From a virus: DNA of 41,281 nucleotides. This document shows, piece by piece, positions 1,127-41,281 of the stretch; within the stretch, counting starts at the first letter, position 1, and each line of letters begins with the position of its first letter. Location: the IMG/VR virus record IMGVR_UViG_3300025910_000016, positions 1-41,281 of that record; one strand, 5' to 3'. The translations under genes were made by a program, and so were the position numbers. A model generated the notes under the pieces. It had not been told where the DNA came from. It saw nothing but the letters and a program-made list of their open reading frames with translations, and made no database searches.

Positions 1127-1350
1127 CTATCCCTAGGTAACGGTGGCCAGATCTGATTTTCATCGATGTCATGAATAATGGTTCCTGCCGCGTTAAGAAT
1201 ATCCTGGGCGAGCTTATCACCCTCGATCGCACGCAAAACCAAATAGATCTCGCTCAGCCTGGAGAGGGGAATGTCACCCTCCACGCGTGACTGAAACAAA
1301 CTGATGCTGCGTATTGCAATCTTCTTGCGTTTGTCTTCTATATCAGCCAT
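1123..1350 (-). CDS. small hypothetical helical protein
   Basis: A 75-aa protein beginning MADIEDKRKK. I chose this ATG because GGAG lies 9 nt upstream. Earlier in-frame ATGs at 1392 and 1383 have no suitable ribosome binding site and would overlap the previous gene by about 50 nt instead of 8. The sequence is predicted helical (SRLSEIYLVLRAIEGDKLAQDIL written in parts as SRLSEIYLVLRAI and DKLAQDILNAAG) with no cysteines or transmembrane segments. Function unknown. Confidence 0.6.
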   Translation of the reverse strand: MADIEDKRKKIAIRSISLFQSRVEGDIPLSRLSEIYLVLRAIEGDKLAQDILNAAGTIIHDIDENQIWPPLPRDR

Positions 1351-1693
1351 TTCTTTGTTCTCCAATTCTACTATTCTTCCCATGCCTCTCATACAACCAT
1401 GCCAATGCTTCCTCGCCCGGATGCCACGTTTTGGTCGTTCCGCAGCATGTGCACTTCCAGGTCATATGCATCAACAGAGATCCCTCGATATATCCTGCCA
1501 CCTCAATATCGTTGGGAATCTCTCGATCCACATCCACAGCCTCACGGAATAGGATCACCTGCGTTGTGTGATATCGGATCGTCTCTCCATCCACCTGTGC
1601 CTTGGCTTCCACTCGCTTCAAGATCCCCAGTACATGGGATTCATTCGCATCGCACTTCCATTTCTTCAAATTCTCAAAGTTGCTACGGTCCAT
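1343..1693 (-). CDS. hypothetical protein with a CxC/CxxC-type patch
   Basis: A 116-aa protein beginning MDRSNFENLKKW. This start is preceded by AAGGAG at a normal 7-nt spacing, while an upstream in-frame ATG at 1711 lacks one. Cysteines occur near the N-terminus (WKCD) and in WKCTCCGTTKTW, which resembles half of a treble-clef or zinc ribbon. The stretch between is rich in beta-strand residues. The 5' side abuts palindromic element B. Function unknown. Confidence 0.6.
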   Translation of the reverse strand: MDRSNFENLKKWKCDANESHVLGILKRVEAKAQVDGETIRYHTTQVILFREAVDVDREIPNDIEVAGYIEGSLLMHMTWKCTCCGTTKTWHPGEEALAWLYERHGKNSRIGEQRNG

Positions 1694-1710
1694 AATGTTC
1701 TCCTTTGTCA

Positions 1711-1747
1711 CCTTCTCCCTTTCAGGGAGAAGGCAGGGTGAGGGTCA
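1711..1747 (-). repeat. palindromic C-rich element, copy B
   Basis: On the reverse strand CCCTCACCCTGCC leads into a perfect stem (arms 1711-1720 and 1724-1733, loop GAA). The element starts at the TGA stop of the gene at 1745 and ends at the ribosome binding site of the gene starting at 1693, filling the spacer exactly. Confidence 0.7.
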
Positions 1748-5714: not shown

Positions 5715-5846
5715 TCAACCGCCAACCGAAAACTCACCAAACATCTCCCCTCCCCCTCTTAACCAAAACCCGCATGTCGCGCACCTGTCCGAGCGCACGC
5801 AAAGTTATTGGCGGTTAAAAATAGGTTCATAGTTTTTGGCGGTTAA
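5715..5846. promoter_or_regulatory. repeat-bearing control region upstream of the SF2 helicase
   Basis: The motif TTGGCGGTTAA occurs twice in direct orientation (5808-5818 and 5836-5846, 28 bp apart) and once inverted with one change (5715-5725). Between them lies ATGTCGCGCACC. The same two words (ATGTCGCACC and ATTGGCGGT) occur together at 12453-12476 upstream of the primase gene. This looks like a shared operator or activator module. No consensus sigma70 boxes were found here. Confidence 0.5.
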
Positions 5847-6411: not shown

Positions 6412-6439
6412 ATCGCTGAAAGCTGATCGCTATCACCTA
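6412..6439. repeat. degenerate heptamer block (4 units)
   Basis: Plus strand ATCGCTG, AAAGCTG, ATCGCTA, TCACCTA in strict 7-nt register. The last unit carries, in reverse, the TAG stop codon of the ParM-like gene. Confidence 0.6.
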
Positions 6440-7438
6440 CTTCTTGAACTTCAAAGCCATCTTATAGAGTCCATGGCTGATCGCCATCACAGGCTCATCC
6501 AAAACAATTGCCTTCCCCTTGAACTTATCTTCCAGATAAGGTCTCAGCAATTCAGCGCCACCACCCACCACAAGCACAGCTGCAAAGCGCTTGAAATATT
6601 GACCCCAGCGATTCTCGATCGCACCTGTCACCTGTTGTGACCAGATCTCCATTGCAGGTTTCAAGATATCCTTGTCGATCCGCTTCGTTCGAAGTCGCAT
6701 GTCAAGCTCTCCAAGCGTAAATAAATTGTCATAGCGTCGATTCACTTCTTCCAGCAACCGACGCACACCCATCGTCACACCGCCTGTGAACCGTGCAATA
6801 TCATCGTTCTCGCGTGTCAATAAAAACTCGATGGTATTGAAGCCAATGGAGAGCGCCGCGGTTTCATCTGTCCACAAACGGATCTTGGCAGCGTCACGTG
6901 CCATCTCCCCATTATGGAAATAGGTGTAATCGAACAACGCACCCATCGCCTGTGGCTTCAAAGCGATTTCAGTGACTTCCACCTGATAAGATTCACCATC
7001 TGCGGTCCATTTATGACTGCCCATCATCCACTTCTTCACAGCAGATTTGTATTCCTTCGCATTCGACCCGATCAACATCTGCAAAGGCAAACCAACCATC
7101 AGCGAAAGTGGACCCTTGAAAGCGCCATATTCCAACTGATACTTCGACAACGCCGCATAGAACAGTGAGTGGATCTCTGACGTTCCTGTCAACCGATCAA
7201 AGTCCTGGTTTTCCATTGGGACCCCATAATCATGCGCATTCTCGCCCACGTAAAATGATCCATATTCGCTCTTGATCTCAGTGGGTCTGCGCTTTGACCT
7301 GGCTCCCAGGATGTTCTCAGCCAAATGTTGCGTTCCATTGGCTGAAACCTGGCTCAACACCTGCACACCACCCTGAGCGCCATACAACTTATTTGCGCCC
7401 ATTCCCAAATCTTCACCAAAATAATTTACCGTAGTCAT
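6437..7438 (-). CDS. ParM/StbA-like actin-family protein
   Basis: A 333-aa protein with actin-fold landmarks. GEDLGMGANKLY at residues 8-19 is the phosphate-1 loop, SIGFNTIEF (about 196-204) sits where phosphate-2 belongs, and AVLVVGGGAELL (about 287-298) is the adenosine-binding loop. In phosphate-2 the usual Asp of D-x-G is Ser, so hydrolysis may be altered. Family members form filaments that segregate plasmids (ParM) or move phage DNA (AlpC of a corynebacterial prophage). AAGGAG precedes the start. Downstream are two small genes, one RHH-like; about 1.6 kb upstream lies a hexamer array that could be its centromere. Confidence in the fold is good, in plasmid partition moderate. Confidence 0.8.
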   Translation of the reverse strand: MTTVNYFGEDLGMGANKLYGAQGGVQVLSQVSANGTQHLAENILGARSKRRPTEIKSEYGSFYVGENAHDYGVPMENQDFDRLTGTSEIHSLFYAALSKYQLEYGAFKGPLSLMVGLPLQMLIGSNAKEYKSAVKKWMMGSHKWTADGESYQVEVTEIALKPQAMGALFDYTYFHNGEMARDAAKIRLWTDETAALSIGFNTIEFLLTRENDDIARFTGGVTMGVRRLLEEVNRRYDNLFTLGELDMRLRTKRIDKDILKPAMEIWSQQVTGAIENRWGQYFKRFAAVLVVGGGAELLRPYLEDKFKGKAIVLDEPVMAISHGLYKMALKFKK

Positions 7439-8670: not shown

Positions 8671-8849
8671 CCACCTCCCCAGAAGAACCGAAATGCCAAC
8701 AGAAGCATCGCAATGAAACCGATCACAGCGAAGACATTCCATGCCTCGCGCTTGAACCTCTTCACAGCTGCTCGAAAATCTTTCTTCCACTTCGGTTCGC
8801 GGTATGTCCTGGTGATGAACGATCGCTTCTTGCTCTTCCGTTTTCTCAT
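8667..8849 (-). CDS. small basic single-TM protein
   Basis: A 60-aa protein. A strongly basic N-terminal half (MRKRKSKKRSF, KWKKDFRAAVKRFKR) is followed by one TM helix (VFAVIGFIAMLLLAFRFF) and a Gly tail. The basic segment should stay in the cytoplasm, giving an N-in, C-out topology. AGG motifs lie before the ATG, and its ATG overlaps the stop of the small gene upstream as ATGA. It could be a membrane tether for DNA, but this is only inference from charge. Confidence 0.6.
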   Translation of the reverse strand: MRKRKSKKRSFITRTYREPKWKKDFRAAVKRFKREAWNVFAVIGFIAMLLLAFRFFWGGG

Positions 8850-8992
8850 TTCAGCCTGCCTTTCTTGAACTTCCTGATCAATCGAATAAAGCTCTTACGC
8901 CTCTCACCCATCAGCTCATAGTTCACAGCGTTATTCCAGAACTTGCGCAAGTGAGTGAGAAGCAGTTTTAAAATATAGGTTTGGATATTCAC
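8846..8992 (-). CDS. very small basic protein, GTG start (48 aa)
   Basis: A short frame starting at GTG 8992 and ending in a TGA that overlaps the next ATG as ATGA. The product (opening MNIQTYILKLLLTHLRKF, ending KSFIRLIRKFKKGRLK) is amphipathic and basic. A G-rich stretch with GGCGGA lies just before the GTG. The two four-base overlaps at its ends support it, but the upstream partner is itself doubtful, so confidence is limited. No family recognised. Confidence 0.4.
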   Translation of the reverse strand: MNIQTYILKLLLTHLRKFWNNAVNYELMGERRKSFIRLIRKFKKGRLK

Positions 8993-9309
8993 TCCGCCCC
9001 CCCAAAAACATGAGGATCATCCTCATACATCCTCATAACTGCCTCATAAATTGGTCTTGACCCCATCCCTATTTCTATACAAGACAAACGCAATCCTTTA
9101 AATACCCTATCCTCATACTCCCTCATAAGCCTCATATTTTTGGGTGTGACTGTGTTGACTATCCGCAAGACATGAGGGATATGAGGCAGTATGAGGCAGA
9201 AAACGCCAAATGCACCCCCTAAAATTTGTTTTGTAAAGCCAAAATCACTACAAAACAAATTAATTCGCCCGTACGCCCAAAGTGCCTCATGCATCCTCAT
9301 GATCCTCAT
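8989..9309 (-). CDS. doubtful ORF running through the ATGAGG array (106 aa)
   Basis: An open frame exists from ATG 9309 (overlapping the primase stop as ATGA) to 8989. Its Met-Arg pairs come mainly from the ATGAGG hexamers, and its middle (LGGAFGVFCLILPHIP) comes from the A/T-rich inverted repeat. No family is recognised and no independent ribosome binding site is seen. I think the region functions mainly as DNA and the frame is probably open by chance, although the overlap signals leave a real possibility. Confidence 0.3.
   Translation of the reverse strand: MRIMRMHEALWAYGRINLFCSDFGFTKQILGGAFGVFCLILPHIPHVLRIVNTVTPKNMRLMREYEDRVFKGLRLSCIEIGMGSRPIYEAVMRMYEDDPHVFGGAE
9010..9309. repeat. array of 13 ATGAGG/CCTCAT hexamers (candidate centromere or origin)
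   Basis: CCTCAT occurs at 9021, 9031, 9042, 9111, 9121, 9130, 9285, 9295 and 9304; its complement ATGAGG occurs at 9010, 9172, 9181 and 9191. They form four groups with units 9-11 bp apart, about one helical turn, so that bound proteins would line up on one face. Groups 1, 2 and 4 have one orientation, group 3 the other. Thirteen exact copies in 300 bp is far beyond chance. Such phasing is typical of ParR/parC-type centromeres, iteron origins and repressor arrays. It lies immediately after the primase-helicase gene and about 1.6 kb before the ParM-like gene. Confidence 0.85.
9223..9261. repeat. perfect 13-bp A/T-rich inverted repeat inside the hexamer array
   Basis: AATTTGTTTTGTA (9223-9235) and its exact complement TACAAAACAAATT (9249-9261) flank a 13-nt spacer. 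It lies between hexamer groups 3 and 4. The low GC content of the arms would suit a DNA-unwinding element or a cruciform at an origin. It could also be an operator. Confidence 0.75.
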
Positions 9310-12299
9310 AATTTCATCTCACCTTGACCAGGCTTCTCAGCTGAAGAGTCTTCCAGATCCGCAGCCTGATCCATCCCGAATCGGAACTTCCCGATTGCGA
9401 TCTTGTCTTTATCGAGCACAATGGCGCTCACACCCTTGTGGCTGCCAGCTCGCTCGATCGGAAGTCTGAAAGCATCACGGCAAACGGAGCTGATGGTCCG
9501 TGATTTGATGGAGTCTTTATCCTTCTTGTCACTGGAGCCTTCCCCAAAATTCTCTACATCCGCGATCTCATTAGCCACGATCGCCAGGTCTCTGGCCAGT
9601 ACATAACGAACTTCACCTTGCCTCCCCAGCTTGCCAGTCTGCACATACTTGGCATATTCCTCCCGCTCATCCACCGCCACCACTGCCCTGAAGATCAGCG
9701 CTTCGAAGCTCTCCGCCATGCGCTTCATCTCTTCCTCGTAATTCACTTCGGCGATCATGTTCAGATCTTCGAGCAGCTCTTTATCGTCCTGCATGTAGGC
9801 CAGCACTTTAAGCGGTCTCATCACCTGGTTCATGCGGGCGCTCACTCTTGGATCGGTTAATTTGATTTTCGGATCTGCTTCGATGCGTGGCAGCCAGGTG
9901 TTCAATCGCCAGTACAGCAGATCCTTTCTCAACTCATCCGCTTCGATCTCCAGCGACGGTGGAATCACTCCTGGCTCGATCCCTCTGCTTGTCAGCTCCA
10001 CCACATCCCGCTTGAAAAGGTCAAAGGTGAGGCATCGAGATTCCGTTGCCGGATCCTTGAATGGACCGTACATCGTCAATAGCGTGGGACCAAAAACATT
10101 CGTGGTGGCTGGCCTGAACGTGTGCGTCCCATCCGCCTTCAGCACATCCACCATCGTCACGATTCGTGCTTGCTCCTTCATGGCTCGCACATTCAACAAC
10201 GCACGCAGCTCACCGCGGTCTTCTTTATTGCCAGCCAGGGAATCAACCTCATCGATCATGAGAGTGCCAGAATAAATATGTGCCATCCCCTTGAAGCCTG
10301 CGATCGTGGTAAGCCCTGCAGTGGTCATCATCCGATAGCACACCCGCCCCACCAGCAGCATCAGCTCTGATTTGCCCGTCCCAGGTGCCCCACGTGCTCG
10401 CAAATACGGAAGATAGGGAAACGAGTCATAGACCCACGTGAAAAGAGCATACAGAGCCGCCTGGATCTGGTGAATGGTATTGTCCAGGAGGAAATACCGT
10501 GACAGAAACAGACGGATCTCAGCCACCAGCTCCTTGGCTGTTTTCTTGTTGCCCAGTGCGCTGGGCAATCGCACGGTGCCAAAGCGAATGTTGTCATCGA
10601 TCATCGGAACATACCGTTTCCCATTGATGTCTACAAAATTGGCTGTGCTGATCTCACGCTTAGCTTGAACGTGGACATATCCATTCATGGTTGTGGTGAT
10701 CCAGATGTGTGCATAAGCAAACTTTGCTTTCCCGTTTTGCTTCTCGTACATCATCTCCAGCAGGAAACCCTCAGTGCCATCTTCATTCACGGGATACCAC
10801 CCACCGATAGTCTCTTCCCGCTCGAGCGGCTCATCAATATCGTTCTTTGCATCCTTCAATTCATCCCCGATCAACTTTGTGAACGGTCTGATCGGAGCGC
10901 CCTTGTATTCTGGGAAGAGATCTTCAGGATAGATCGCCTTTGCCAGCCTCAGGCGCATATCGTTGCGCGTGTTCCTGGGCATCCTGGCGATCAAAGGCAG
11001 AACAACTTCCAACGCTTTGTCACGATCCGCGCCTTGTTGCCTGCCTGCATAAGTAGCGGCCAATAATACGATTGGCTGAGCCTTATCGAAAACGTTCTTA
11101 ACATTTTCAGTCTGCAGCTTTGGCTCGATTCCCTCATCCTGGTGATACTGAGCCAGGTCATTGGCATCCTTCGAGATCTTCTCATGCCCCTCGTGCACCC
11201 ATTTGAACTTTGGCCAGCGTGCCACCCACAGCATGGGGCCAAAAGCAGTAGTCAGCGGAAAATCATTTTTCTTCCCCGTGATGATCGTTTCACCTGGCGT
11301 GTCTGCATCGGTGGCAAAGAAGATCGATTCATACTTGTCCTTCAGCATCTTGATCGTATCTTCGAGACTCTTCCACGCAGATCCGTTCAATGCCATCGCA
11401 GGGATCCCCCACTGTGCCAGCGTGACGGCATCCCCCTGCCCCTCCACGATCACAATGCGACCACGATCCCGCAAATGCATGTGATTGAAGAATGGGACCT
11501 TTTCCCCGGCCAGCGCGGCATATGGATTGAAGCTCTTCCACTCAGTCTCCTCAGATCCATGCTTGATTACGTCATGACCTGGCAGCTGCCTCCGTGATAA
11601 ATAAGCAATCCGGCCATCGATCTTGTGCGCATACACCAGCCCAGGCTTATCCATCAGCCCATGCACAGCCTTCTCTTTGAAGTGGCTTGGGTCAAGACCA
11701 TGTTTCTGTGCCCAGGCTGCCACATCCCCTTTGAAGCCCAGCACCATCACAGCATCAGGAGAATCATGCTTGATCCCATGCAGGTTAAATTCGCCCTTCA
11801 TTTCCTGAACTTGAGCAGCAGTAGCCCGCCCAGAAAACCCCAGACGTGAGGCAATGATCGTTTCATCATTCCACCCTCGAGATCTTGCATAGATTAAGGC
11901 TTCTTCATCCTTCTGGAGCCATTCTGCAAATTTTCTTGCGGCGATCTGAAGCGCATCTTCCCTGGCTCGCACTGCCAGGCGTTGCTTTAACTCAGGTCCT
12001 TCCATATCCCCAATGGAAAGATTTGCACGTTTGGCCAGCTCCTGAATCGCTTCCTTCACATCCCACCCAGCATGCTGCTTCAACACCCAATCGATCACCG
12101 TTCCGCCCTCGTTGCAACTGCCAAAGCAATACCACGTTCCCGAATCAGGAAACACAACCAGCGCACCTGTCTTTGAATTCGCGTGAAATGGGCAGAACCC
12201 AGTCCAGTTCTTTCCAGATCTGCGCAGCCTTACCTTTGCATCCTCCTGGACCAGCTCCACAATATCTACTCTTGCTTTGATGTCATCAATAATCGTCAT
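9306..12299 (-). CDS. phage primase-helicase: CHC2 zinc finger, TOPRIM and AAA+ ATPase
   Basis: A 997-aa protein. A CHC2 zinc-binding domain comes first (CPFH at residues 36-39, YCFGSC at about 57-62), then a DnaG-type TOPRIM domain (VIVEGQGDAV near 283; FFATDADTPGE near 332). A long linker leads to an ATPase with Walker A ARGAPGTGKS (near 640), Walker B TLMIDEVDSL (near 680) and a probable arginine finger (PATESRCLTF). It should synthesise primers and unwind the fork, making it the central replication protein. No replicative DNA polymerase is present, so the host polymerase is presumably recruited. The hexamer array starts directly at its stop codon. Confidence 0.9.
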   Translation of the reverse strand: MTIIDDIKARVDIVELVQEDAKVRLRRSGKNWTGFCPFHANSKTGALVVFPDSGTWYCFGSCNEGGTVIDWVLKQHAGWDVKEAIQELAKRANLSIGDMEGPELKQRLAVRAREDALQIAARKFAEWLQKDEEALIYARSRGWNDETIIASRLGFSGRATAAQVQEMKGEFNLHGIKHDSPDAVMVLGFKGDVAAWAQKHGLDPSHFKEKAVHGLMDKPGLVYAHKIDGRIAYLSRRQLPGHDVIKHGSEETEWKSFNPYAALAGEKVPFFNHMHLRDRGRIVIVEGQGDAVTLAQWGIPAMALNGSAWKSLEDTIKMLKDKYESIFFATDADTPGETIITGKKNDFPLTTAFGPMLWVARWPKFKWVHEGHEKISKDANDLAQYHQDEGIEPKLQTENVKNVFDKAQPIVLLAATYAGRQQGADRDKALEVVLPLIARMPRNTRNDMRLRLAKAIYPEDLFPEYKGAPIRPFTKLIGDELKDAKNDIDEPLEREETIGGWYPVNEDGTEGFLLEMMYEKQNGKAKFAYAHIWITTTMNGYVHVQAKREISTANFVDINGKRYVPMIDDNIRFGTVRLPSALGNKKTAKELVAEIRLFLSRYFLLDNTIHQIQAALYALFTWVYDSFPYLPYLRARGAPGTGKSELMLLVGRVCYRMMTTAGLTTIAGFKGMAHIYSGTLMIDEVDSLAGNKEDRGELRALLNVRAMKEQARIVTMVDVLKADGTHTFRPATTNVFGPTLLTMYGPFKDPATESRCLTFDLFKRDVVELTSRGIEPGVIPPSLEIEADELRKDLLYWRLNTWLPRIEADPKIKLTDPRVSARMNQVMRPLKVLAYMQDDKELLEDLNMIAEVNYEEEMKRMAESFEALIFRAVVAVDEREEYAKYVQTGKLGRQGEVRYVLARDLAIVANEIADVENFGEGSSDKKDKDSIKSRTISSVCRDAFRLPIERAGSHKGVSAIVLDKDKIAIGKFRFGMDQAADLEDSSAEKPGQGEMKL

Positions 12300-15218: not shown

Positions 15219-16154
15219 TCACATCGCCTCCGCAGCTGCACGCATATCGCTCTCACGTGCACGTGTGTAATAAGCAAGGATCACTTCTGGCCGGTCCCCA
15301 GTTTGCTGGCACACAGCATCGATCGCTGCCGGCAACTTCCAGGGATCGCCCTTCATGTAGGCATCCATGTAGCGCAGAACATACGTGTGTCTCATGGCAT
15401 GCGGAGTGGCTCTCACACCCGCCTTTGCAGCGATCAGAACAAAGCGCCTCCAGGCCTGGCCGCGATCGATCGCAAATCCCTTCTCATCGGTGATCAATGT
15501 TCCCTCGAGGGAATTGGGCTTGCGGTCCAGCCAAGTGCGGACCTTGTTGATTAATCTGGATCCGATCTTGATCGTTCGATATTTTTTGCCCTTCCCCCAC
15601 AAGTGGATCTCTCCATTTTCCAGGTGCAGATCGCTCAATTTCAAAGTCACAGATTCGCTGATCCGCAGCCCAGCATCATCCATCAAAAAGAAAAGAATGC
15701 TGTCACGCAGCCCAATCAACGTATCTTCACCAGCCTCAGCTGCAGCTTCAAGCTTCAACCGATCATCTTCAGCCAAATCACGCGGACTCTTGCGAGTAGC
15801 ATCCATAAAAGGGATCCACTCCGCAGGGTCATGATCGATCAATCCAATACTGCGTGCCCAGCTGATCAGCATTCGCAGGGATGCCAGTTTGCGGTTGTAG
15901 GTCGCTGGCTTGCTCTCTCGCTCGAGCGTTTGAAAATATGCTCGCAGATCTGCGTCATTCAGGAAATCCAGGGACCGTGCAGGTGTGAGACTCTCAGCGA
16001 TCAAACGCACGTCACTCAAATATGCATCCATGGTCAAATGACTGCGTGCACGTCGCTTCTGCGAAGGTGTGCTGTGCAGCCATGACCCAAACGCCTCCAG
16101 CCAATGCATGGAGGGAGCAACGGGCAATTGCGTAAGATCAATTTGTTGGAGCAT
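15219..16154 (-). CDS. tyrosine recombinase, XerC/XerD-like
   Basis: A 311-aa protein, the normal Xer length. An N-terminal SAM-like core-binding domain (YLSDVRLIAESL ... ATYNRKLASLRMLISWA) precedes the catalytic domain. That domain has DDAGLRISE (first Arg, near 176), WGKGKKYRTI (the beta-hairpin Lys), HAMRHTY (H-x-x-R, near 268) and VILAYYTRA, whose Tyr is the nucleophile. The last catalytic position, usually His or Trp, is not clear. Xer-like enzymes resolve multimers of circular replicons or integrate phages. A large serine recombinase is also present, so this one may act as a resolvase. It overlaps the upstream gene by 17 nt. Confidence 0.85.
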   Translation of the reverse strand: MLQQIDLTQLPVAPSMHWLEAFGSWLHSTPSQKRRARSHLTMDAYLSDVRLIAESLTPARSLDFLNDADLRAYFQTLERESKPATYNRKLASLRMLISWARSIGLIDHDPAEWIPFMDATRKSPRDLAEDDRLKLEAAAEAGEDTLIGLRDSILFFLMDDAGLRISESVTLKLSDLHLENGEIHLWGKGKKYRTIKIGSRLINKVRTWLDRKPNSLEGTLITDEKGFAIDRGQAWRRFVLIAAKAGVRATPHAMRHTYVLRYMDAYMKGDPWKLPAAIDAVCQQTGDRPEVILAYYTRARESDMRAAAEAM

Positions 16155-19442: not shown

Positions 19443-19964
19443 ATGGCAAAAACAACATCAAACCAGACAATAAATACTGCAGACGATTTGGACGATGACC
19501 GCTACGCGTATGAGCGTGCCCTCAGTCTCATGATTCACCATACAGCGCTTCTCTGGCAAACATTTGGTTCTTTTCTATTAACTGAAACTGTCTTAATTGG
19601 TTTTTTGGGGGCAGCCATTATCGACAAAAAAGTATCTCAAAATGGCAATCTAATAATTATTAGCGGTTCCGTTATCGGTTTGATCATTTCACTTTTGTGG
19701 TATTCAACCTTCCGCCATAACTCTGGATTTTATGAACTGCGTTGGGCACAACTTAGGCGCATTGAGTCAAATCTTAATATTAACTTAGCACGGGAGGGAA
19801 GTAGGTTTTCTTCAGGAGATGGAATACCAGATGAAAATAACAAAATATTGCGGCTTCCATTGATTGCTCAGGCATTGCCGCCCCGTCGAGCTGTGCCATT
19901 GCTCATCGTTCTATTTGCAATTGTTTTTGTTTTGTTCATTGTTACTCAATTAGGATGGATTTAA
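19443..19964 (+). CDS. three-TM membrane protein (RipA-like topology)
   Basis: A 173-aa protein. Two TM helices form a hairpin (SFLLTETVLIGFLGAAII about 42-60; LIIISGSVIGLIISLLWY about 71-88), then a cytoplasmic stretch with FYELRWAQLRRIESNL, then a third C-terminal TM (VPLLIVLFAIVFVLFIV). The hairpin plus the W-x-x-L-R-x-I-E stretch resembles the RipA-type octameric membrane family and 2TM effectors of defence loci, but I cannot assign it to one. A role in superinfection exclusion is plausible by position. The 3' end overlaps the serine recombinase by 10 nt. Confidence 0.65.
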   Translation: MAKTTSNQTINTADDLDDDRYAYERALSLMIHHTALLWQTFGSFLLTETVLIGFLGAAIIDKKVSQNGNLIIISGSVIGLIISLLWYSTFRHNSGFYELRWAQLRRIESNLNINLAREGSRFSSGDGIPDENNKILRLPLIAQALPPRRAVPLLIVLFAIVFVLFIVTQLGWI

Positions 19965-21634
19965 TATTGAGCTATCTCCCTCCCCCATCCACTCTTCCTC
20001 CTGGCTCGATCGTAGATTCATATCGCCGCGATAGCGGTGGCATGCGCCAGGACAAATCCACTGATCAACAACTCACTGAGCTCGAAGCCTACTGCAAAGA
20101 GCATAACCTGGTGCACCGTCACTGCTTTGTAGATGAAGCCAAATCAGGCAAATCGACTGCAGGCCGTGATGACTTCAACCGCATGATCGAAACGTATGAA
20201 ATCCCGTCGAACCGCCCAGTTGGTCTTCTCCTCTGGAATTATGCCCGCTTTGCCCGTGACATCGACGATGCCCAGTTCAACAAGATCCGCTTGCGCCAAT
20301 GGGGCATCACCGTTCATTCCCTCAATGATCAGATCCCTGAAGGTGATTATGGCCGCGTCATAGAATTCCTCATCGATGTTTCCAACGAAGAAAAACGCAA
20401 ACAGACCTCCATCGATGCCAAGCGCGGTCTTTGGGATCTTGTTCAAAAATATGGCTGCGTGCCAGGCATCCCCCCACGTGGCTTCAAACGAGAACCTGTG
20501 AATCTCGGTCCCCGCCGCGATAAGACCGAACACATTGCCCATCGCTGGGTTCCGGATCCCGAATGGACTCCCCGAATCAAACGCGCCTTCCAGATGAAAG
20601 CGGAAGGCGCAACGCTCCTGCAGATCCACAAAGAAACCCACATCTACAACGCACTCAATTCCTATCGCACGTTTTTTTCCAACGAACTGTATATTGGTAT
20701 CCTGCACTTTGGTGGCCACGTGGTCCAACATTACTGCGATCCGATCGTGGATCTCCCCACCTGGGACGCGATCCAGAAGATTCAATCACTCCATGCGAAC
20801 CGTCAGCATGTGACCGCCAAAAACAGCCTTCACCCTCGCCGCAAATCTGAAGCTGCCACTTACCTGCTCTCAGGCATCGGATATTGCGCCAGGTGCGGCT
20901 CCCCACTCTGGGGCATGTCCTCCAAACAACGCTCAGGCTCCTACTACTATCGCTATGCCTGCACCAAAGCCAAGCGCCAGCGTGATTGTGATCTTCAGCC
21001 CATCCCAGCCCGCGCCCTCGAGGCTCTAGTGATCAGTGAGCTCACTCACTGGTTTGAACATCCCGATAACCTTCGAGACCTGCTCGAAGCCAGTCAACAA
21101 TTTGACGCACAATTTGCCACCAGGCAAAAGGCAGCTGCCAAAGAGATCCAAAAAGACCTGGGCGCTGTTCGCAGGTCTATTGTCAACGTCACAGATGCAA
21201 TCTCTCAGCTGAAGAACAAAAAGAGCAAAGCCCTCCTGGCCAAGCTGGAATCCCTCGAATCGGAAGAGACCGATCTCGAAACCCGCCTGGAAAAGGTCAA
21301 GACCCAAACTCCAGTTGTTCCTCCCCCACTCACTGAAGAACAGATCCTGTTCCTGTCAAAACGCCTGGTCACGGAGCTCAACACCAAGGACCCAGCCACC
21401 CAACGAAGAGTCCTGCTGGCCACCATTCACGCCGTCACCGTGGACCGCACTGGCAGCTACGGTTACTGCCACATTGACCTGAAGCACCGCCCACGCGAAA
21501 CCCAGGCCCCTGAAGAGCCTGGAGGGCAATGGTATACTGTATCTATATCTCGTGCCCCTGTGGGGGCACATCTCTATAGACGCAGTATTGAATTCGAATT
21601 TACGATCGCAACAAAAAAATCCCACTCTGTGTGA
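19955..21634 (+). CDS. large serine recombinase (probable phage integrase)
   Basis: A 559-aa protein with the three parts of large serine integrases. The catalytic domain (residues about 18-155) has SYRRDSGG, with Ser27 the probable nucleophile, and YARFARDIDD with the active-site Arg. The recombinase domain follows (about 165-300: VPGIPPRGFKRE ... LYIGILHFGGHVV). A zinc ribbon with a coiled coil completes it (CARCGSPLWG ... CTKAKRQRDC; AVRRSIVNVTDAISQLKNKK). It should insert the phage at an attB site and, with a directionality factor not identified here, excise it. I could not locate attP. A terminator overlaps its last codons. Confidence 0.85.
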   Translation: MDLILSYLPPPSTLPPGSIVDSYRRDSGGMRQDKSTDQQLTELEAYCKEHNLVHRHCFVDEAKSGKSTAGRDDFNRMIETYEIPSNRPVGLLLWNYARFARDIDDAQFNKIRLRQWGITVHSLNDQIPEGDYGRVIEFLIDVSNEEKRKQTSIDAKRGLWDLVQKYGCVPGIPPRGFKREPVNLGPRRDKTEHIAHRWVPDPEWTPRIKRAFQMKAEGATLLQIHKETHIYNALNSYRTFFSNELYIGILHFGGHVVQHYCDPIVDLPTWDAIQKIQSLHANRQHVTAKNSLHPRRKSEAATYLLSGIGYCARCGSPLWGMSSKQRSGSYYYRYACTKAKRQRDCDLQPIPARALEALVISELTHWFEHPDNLRDLLEASQQFDAQFATRQKAAAKEIQKDLGAVRRSIVNVTDAISQLKNKKSKALLAKLESLESEETDLETRLEKVKTQTPVVPPPLTEEQILFLSKRLVTELNTKDPATQRRVLLATIHAVTVDRTGSYGYCHIDLKHRPRETQAPEEPGGQWYTVSISRAPVGAHLYRRSIEFEFTIATKKSHSV

Positions 21635-40896: not shown

Positions 40897-41279
40897 CACC
40901 GCAGACTTGGAGCCTGGCGCTTGAATAAGAAGAACGTTCCGATCGAACCCACCAAAAGAACAAGCAGGTGGATGATGGTCAGAACGACATTGTCAAATAT
41001 AGATGGAATGAGTTTCAATCCAGCCTCGATCAGGGTGATGATGATTGGTGCAAGGGCAGCTGCAACTGCATTGGCATATCCCGATAGGTCCACCTTGAAC
41101 ACAACGCTGGCTTTCAAGAGTAACCACGTGGCACCTGAAGTTACGAGGATCAATACAAGCAATCGCCCTTCATTAGGCAAGCCAACGAGCGGATGCACAA
41201 AGCCTTGTGCAGCTGCACAACCTGAAAGCAATACTGCTGCCATCAAAGCAACCAGGAAGAAAAGCAAACCACGTTTCAT
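40896..41279 (-). CDS. holin-like membrane protein with lipobox
   Basis: A 127-aa protein, first gene of the late operon. The N-terminus (MKRGLLFFLVALMAAVLLSG-C) is a signal peptide with lipobox LSGC, so Cys21 may be lipidated. Three TM helices follow (LLVLILVTSGATWLLLK, AAALAPIIITLIEAGL, IIHLLVLLVGSIGTFFLF). Small size, TM pattern and position directly before endolysin-related genes suggest a holin, but a lipoprotein signal in a holin is unusual. The gene is cut by the window edge only in its leader: its ribosome binding site AAGGAG is found at 132-137. Confidence 0.7.
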   Translation of the reverse strand: MKRGLLFFLVALMAAVLLSGCAAAQGFVHPLVGLPNEGRLLVLILVTSGATWLLLKASVVFKVDLSGYANAVAAALAPIIITLIEAGLKLIPSIFDNVVLTIIHLLVLLVGSIGTFFLFKRQAPSLR

Positions 41280-41281
41280 AA
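41155..41281. repeat. terminal direct repeat, right copy
   Basis: Identical to bases 1-127. Removing one copy gives a circle of 41,154 bp. Confidence 0.97.

Follow-up and report, generated by a model that had tools for sequence, protein, structure and literature searches.

Replication origins that lie directly 3′ of the gene for their own initiator are known from SaPI/PICI elements, in which short iterons occupy both sides of an AT-rich region just downstream of the (pri-)rep gene (PMC7581432, PMC6092414). In these elements it is the C-terminal domain of the Rep helicase that reads the iterons, and the helicase has been proposed to act there as two hexamers (PMC7581432, PMC6092414). This initiator-adjacent iteron layout has been called unique to PICIs (PMC6092414). 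P4 alpha joins primase, helicase, and winged helix in one protein, and its winged helix binds the origin repeats (PMC4234260). Three AAGTG iterons downstream of the SCCmec helicase gene are bound by the C-terminal domain of the helicase, Cch2 (PMC7581432), and in pRN1 a stem-loop origin is found 3′ of the gene for the primase-helicase, ORF904, a protein that was not seen to bind specifically (PMC4234260).

We analyzed an IMG/VR virus record of 41,281 nucleotides (the window) that carries a comparable arrangement. The hexamer ATGAGG occurs 25 times in the window (32 copies, or 0.24 per 300 bp, are expected from shuffled sequence), and 13 of the 25 copies fall within positions 9010-9309, directly 3′ of the stop codon of a primase-helicase gene. 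A Poisson estimate of ∼1e-18 for 13 copies in one 300-bp stretch excludes chance. All thirteen hexamers are where the initial annotation had placed them, and the four groups it described, with copies 9-11 bp apart and one group inverted, resolve into four triplets (T1-T4) plus one single copy. Downstream of the stop codon, the primase strand carries in turn T1 (>>>), an AT-rich dyad, T2 (<<<), T3 (>>>), T4 (>>>), and the inverted single copy. Start-to-start spacing is 9 and 10 bp in T1 (9285-9309, minus strand; starts 9304/9295/9285), in T2, which is inverted relative to the other three (9172-9196, plus strand; starts 9172/9181/9191), and in T3 (9111-9135, minus strand; starts 9130/9121/9111); in T4 (9021-9047, minus strand; starts 9042/9031/9021) it is 11 and 10 bp. 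The single copy (9010-9015, plus strand) faces T4 and is also found in relatives L127 and L165. The first hexamer of T1 (9304-9309) overlaps the primase stop codon (9306-9308); this is the only overlap, and the array lies outside the initiator gene, not inside it as in lambda-type origins. The P4 origin consists of two distant iteron regions, ori and crr. No such split is seen here: every ATGAGG triplet of the genome is inside the 9010-9309 array.

The same array is present at the same place in 24 related phage contigs, recovered by searches with primase, dyad, or triplet, which gives 25 distinct contigs with the window (L214 and L218 were left out as near-duplicates). In every relative with downstream DNA it follows the primase directly, as PICI/SaPI origins follow their initiator genes, and begins at the stop codon or within ∼120 bp of it, even where primase identity falls to ∼28-36%. 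Six primase relatives with 71-76% identity all have it, and in two of these six ATGAAG replaces ATGAGG at nearly every copy. Wider searches added relatives down to 36% identity, all with the four-set layout and with ATGAAC, ATGAAG, ATGTAC, or ATGAAT as the repeated word; an inverted-repeat search led to the ATGAAC array of L137/G011, and AGTG-type repeats in less regular sets were found in L169/L218 (G008/L218). The word drifts in concert: depending on the phage, an array consists of ATGAGG throughout, of ATGAAG at nearly every copy, or of ATGAAC throughout. The orientation of T4 is forward in the clade of the window and inverted in many other phages.

The array is tied one to one to this primase family. 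Among 2.9 million viral contigs, ATGAGG triplets with exact 9/10 spacing occur in 6, of which 5 belong to the primase family, and the corresponding ATGAAC triplets in 12, of which 10 lie beside a primase of the family; the ATGAAC scan yielded four new relatives (L298, L299, L300, and L305) with identity to the window down to 28%. The specificity is in the exact spacing, as matches to the loose pattern ATGAGGN{2,6} were mostly chance and coding occurrences. Of the genes in the 12 genomes compared by simple ORF calls and BLAST, a procedure that can miss small diverged genes, the primase alone is shared by all.

Distances between triplets vary among the phages, and they vary in steps. Mid-to-mid, T2 and T3 are separated by 50, 58-60, 70-71, 79, or 91 bp (R = 0.93, period 10.4), T3 and T4 by 79, 89-90, or 99-100 bp, and T1 and T2 mostly by 103-105, 112-114, or 123-127 bp, with 91, 118, and 147 bp also seen. 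With each distinct value counted once and a uniform null, p was 0.003 for T2-T3, 0.002 for T3-T4, 0.01 for T1-T2, and 0.0002 for T1-T3; these p-values are to be read as guides because the null ignores relatedness. The best periods for inter-triplet distances were 10.3-11.1 bp. Steps of ∼10.4 bp indicate phasing on double-stranded DNA and would fit the needs of a protein complex on the duplex, while neither coding nor RNA pairing would account for them. The core idea of the initial annotation, a helically phased array of protein sites, appears right.

T1 and T2 converge on an AT-rich inverted repeat that had been overlooked, AATTTGTTTTGTA-N13-TACAAAACAAATT (9223-9261), and the two other triplets lie beyond. 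The repeat is perfect (13+13), contains 9 G+C in 39 positions, and is a candidate unwinding region. Close relatives keep it, with spacers one turn apart; distant relatives have other AT-rich dyads instead. Among the phages the spacer is 14-15 or 24-25 nt, a difference of about one turn, and it is longer in L299/L305. Alignment of eight close relatives revealed, in 8/8, a further conserved box between T3 and T4, TATTTAAAGG..TTTGTCTTGTATAG (also written TATTTAAAGG..TTGTAT; 9075-9110, minus strand). This box may be an additional unwinding element or another kind of promoter.

The proposed initiator is a 997-aa primase-helicase (9306-12299, minus strand), characterized by Pfam and PHROGs profiles, alignments, models, and fold searches. 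Profiles detect a CHC2 zinc finger (aa 2-97) and a Toprim domain (aa 282-340). The helicase is assigned to AAA+ by its Walker motifs (Walker A GAPGTGKSE at aa ∼637-645) and fold, and no D5/SF3 Pfam match was found in the protein. In the modeled C-terminal part, the AAA+ domain is followed by a helical region and then by a predicted winged helix (aa ∼886-962; 9414-9644, minus strand), the proposed iteron reader; the AF2 model of aa 780-997 has a pLDDT of 82 and the order strands-helix-helix-wing. Fold matches to the whole C-terminal part (E ∼1e-5 to 1e-3, TM 0.2-0.35) are replication initiators and loaders: ORC/Cdc6, MCM/CMG, SaPI5 PriRep1 with dsDNA, NrS-1, large T antigen, and E1. When the winged helix is searched by itself, the nearest folds are Cdc6/Orc1, ORC, TubR, and MarR, each match being weak (best E 0.15). 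Covariation of recognition-helix residues with the ATGAGG/ATGAAG change was not significant. That of residues 939/943 (hypergeometric p = 0.002) was dropped as proof of the reader, since 3 of 28 phage pairs did as well in a pair-wise null, and a longer wing in the ATGARG clade was rejected as a trait of a single clade. Because the winged-helix matches are weak and the covariation is not significant, we infer, rather than report as a result, that the iterons are most likely bound by the primase. Recorded phages match this protein over its CHC2/Toprim part only, with identity <30%, and no full-length relative was found among the recorded phages of the collection searched.

Taken with these comparisons, the sequence data make it probable that the 300-bp array serves the phage as its replication origin, one of the PICI/SaPI-like, initiator-adjacent, iteron type. 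The initial annotation had ranked an origin second; it is now the reading best supported, by the association of array and primase across 25 contigs, by the phasing between triplets, and by independence from ParM. In the genomes analyzed for it, GC skew, which had been suggested as a check around 9 kb, did not switch consistently at the array. We propose that the primase-helicase would bind the hexamers through its C-terminal winged helix, with three protomers per triplet on one DNA face, and that the four triplets in helical register would gather ∼12 protomers around the AT-rich dyad between the convergent T1 and T2. The dyad region would then melt, AAA+ rings would load, and the same primase-helicase would lay the first primers. 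A speculative extension, which we consider rather unlikely, is that the 4 × 3 layout reflects the docking of an initiator with twelve subunits: two primase-helicase hexamers, with each of the 12 winged helices on one iteron and the rings on either side of the dyad, the same protein also priming. If true, such an initiator would be a one-protein counterpart of double-hexamer loading by ORC plus MCM, and its subunit count and rotation could be read from the DNA; the fixed spacing makes both directly testable.

An initiator-adjacent iteron origin is a known kind; the helically phased 4 × 3 layout is new. The locus resembles those of SaPIbov1, SaPI5 (PriRep1), and EcCICFT073 in its position 3′ of the initiator gene, in the short iteron sets that flank an AT-rich region, in an iteron word that differs between relatives, and in an AAA+ helicase initiator with a C-terminal domain, which reads the iterons in PICI/SaPI elements and is a predicted winged helix here; PriRep1 structures are, moreover, among the fold matches of the primase. 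It differs in its four triplets with fixed 9/10 spacing, in the CHC2-Toprim primase part, and in belonging to a complete tailed phage, not to a satellite without full virion genes: terminase, portal, head, tape measure, and endolysin are all present. Like P4 alpha, the protein would combine primase, helicase, and winged helix, but no sequence relationship was found, and the sites here form one compact array with triplet layout. SCCmec Cch2 likewise has short iterons in threes downstream of a helicase gene; it has three iterons only, a D5-type helicase without fused primase, and a chromosomal cassette as its setting. The iterons after the primase stop of L169/L218 are of the AGTGACGA/AGTGGTGA type, near the AAGTG iteron of SCCmec Cch2, a similarity that may be due to chance. 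The array shares with pRN1 its place just 3′ of a primase-helicase gene, whereas pRN1 has a stem-loop rather than iterons and an archaeo-eukaryotic primase.

The array could instead be a regulatory operator, at which the primase or another factor controls downstream genes without any origin being involved. The genes on either side of it do run in one direction, operators that overlap with origins are common, and the conserved box between T3 and T4 would suit such a role. We nevertheless regard this as improbable: neither a sigma-70-type promoter nor a terminator was found in 8800-9400, the downstream genes vary among the phages while the array stays constant, and an operator would not need as many as twelve sites spread across 300 bp and flanking an AT-rich dyad.

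The first choice of the initial annotation was a centromere (parC) of a type II ParMR system, bound by an RHH ParR-like protein. A ParM-like actin is indeed encoded 1.6 kb from the array, as had been noted (6437-7438; phrog_691, E 4.7e-32; ALP_N, E 7.7e-11), and in 7/7 phages with ParM it is followed by an RHH-like, ParR-like protein (MAR..SERvRlDGY), a likeness judged by eye only; ParA was not found with PF13614. Short direct repeats at one-turn intervals are bound by RHH proteins. However, ParM is present in 7 of the 12 genomes compared and the array in all 12. The five relatives in which two profiles detect no ParM keep the array intact; one of them is a 48.5-kb contig, and four of the five may be incomplete. 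The array, moreover, does not accompany parMR as in ParMRC loci, for parMR has a repeat pair of its own, TTAACCGCCAA (given also as TTGGCGGTTAA), at 5808-5818 and 5836-5846, 28 bp apart and just downstream of the ParR-like gene. This pair is also found beside parMR in G001, G009, and G010, and in a looser version in G003, while no copy was found in the five ParM-less genomes. On sequence grounds it is the better parC candidate, and a centromere function of the array itself is highly improbable. An inverted copy of the TTGGCGGTTAA repeat occurs at 5717-5725.

It is even harder to credit that the selected feature is an RNA element or the 106-aa ORF that overlaps the array (8989-9309). Base pairing of T2 with T3 would be possible in a transcript, and the ORF is open in the window and in G004; but no Rfam match was found, T4 is inverted in some phages, the inter-triplet distances change in steps of one DNA turn, and the ORF is broken in 6 of 8 close relatives that keep the hexamers. 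The concerted change of the hexamer word likewise argues for selection on a protein-read array and not on the ORF. The refuting check named by the initial annotation, conservation of the ORF rather than of the hexamers, came out against coding. Finally, an attP with arm-type sites and core is very hard to sustain. The genome does encode both a tyrosine recombinase (15219-16154, minus strand) and a large serine recombinase (19955-21634, plus strand), and the arm-type sites that tyrosine integrases use are short repeats at one-turn intervals. The array, however, is separated from the two recombinase genes by 6 kb and 10 kb and is never found directly behind either, G003, G006, and G007 keep it with no tyrosine-recombinase homologue found, and the dyad spacers of 14-15 or 24-25 nt (longer in L299/L305) contrast with a crossover region of 6-8 bp.

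Besides the structural and lysis genes, the ParM, the primase, and the two recombinases, the window encodes a topoisomerase and an SF2 helicase. Its ends are identical over 127 bp (1-127 and 41155-41281), as are those of three relatives of different sequence; because of this identity, the record most likely represents a closed circle of 41,154 bp with an assembler overlap. A first scan of genome contigs for the primase found no relative, and a second scan, which used 12 sequences, recovered three relatives of full length that are not on viral contigs (L217, L218, and L219), all in Chloroflexota/Anaerolineae MAGs. From these, the host is most likely a little-studied bacterium of the Anaerolineae (Chloroflexota), bearing in mind that MAG binning can err, and the lineage is best read as Anaerolineae siphophages. 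In the literature searched, with most subscription journals outside reach, no origin of this kind has been described from Chloroflexota phages. If confirmed, a PICI-like origin, described as unique to satellites, would extend to complete phages of a distant phylum, and the lineage would have a ready-made origin with a single-protein initiator. The putative origin can be recognized by geometry alone despite several word changes, which makes the ∼25 natural variants a resource for studying how initiator and origin change together.

Two further observations were made. A 122-aa cysteine-containing protein (1343-1711, minus strand) has no PHROGs match and is kept in the majority of the relatives whose downstream sequence extends far enough. 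ATGAAG arrays made of a 9/10 triplet and one or two inverted copies also occur in another phage group, just upstream of a lysozyme-like gene (L307, ∼6100; L309, ∼5682; L313, ∼6997; L308, ∼826; L316, ∼8660); these were rejected as members of the family, being short inverted sets in a different gene neighborhood and unrelated to the primase.
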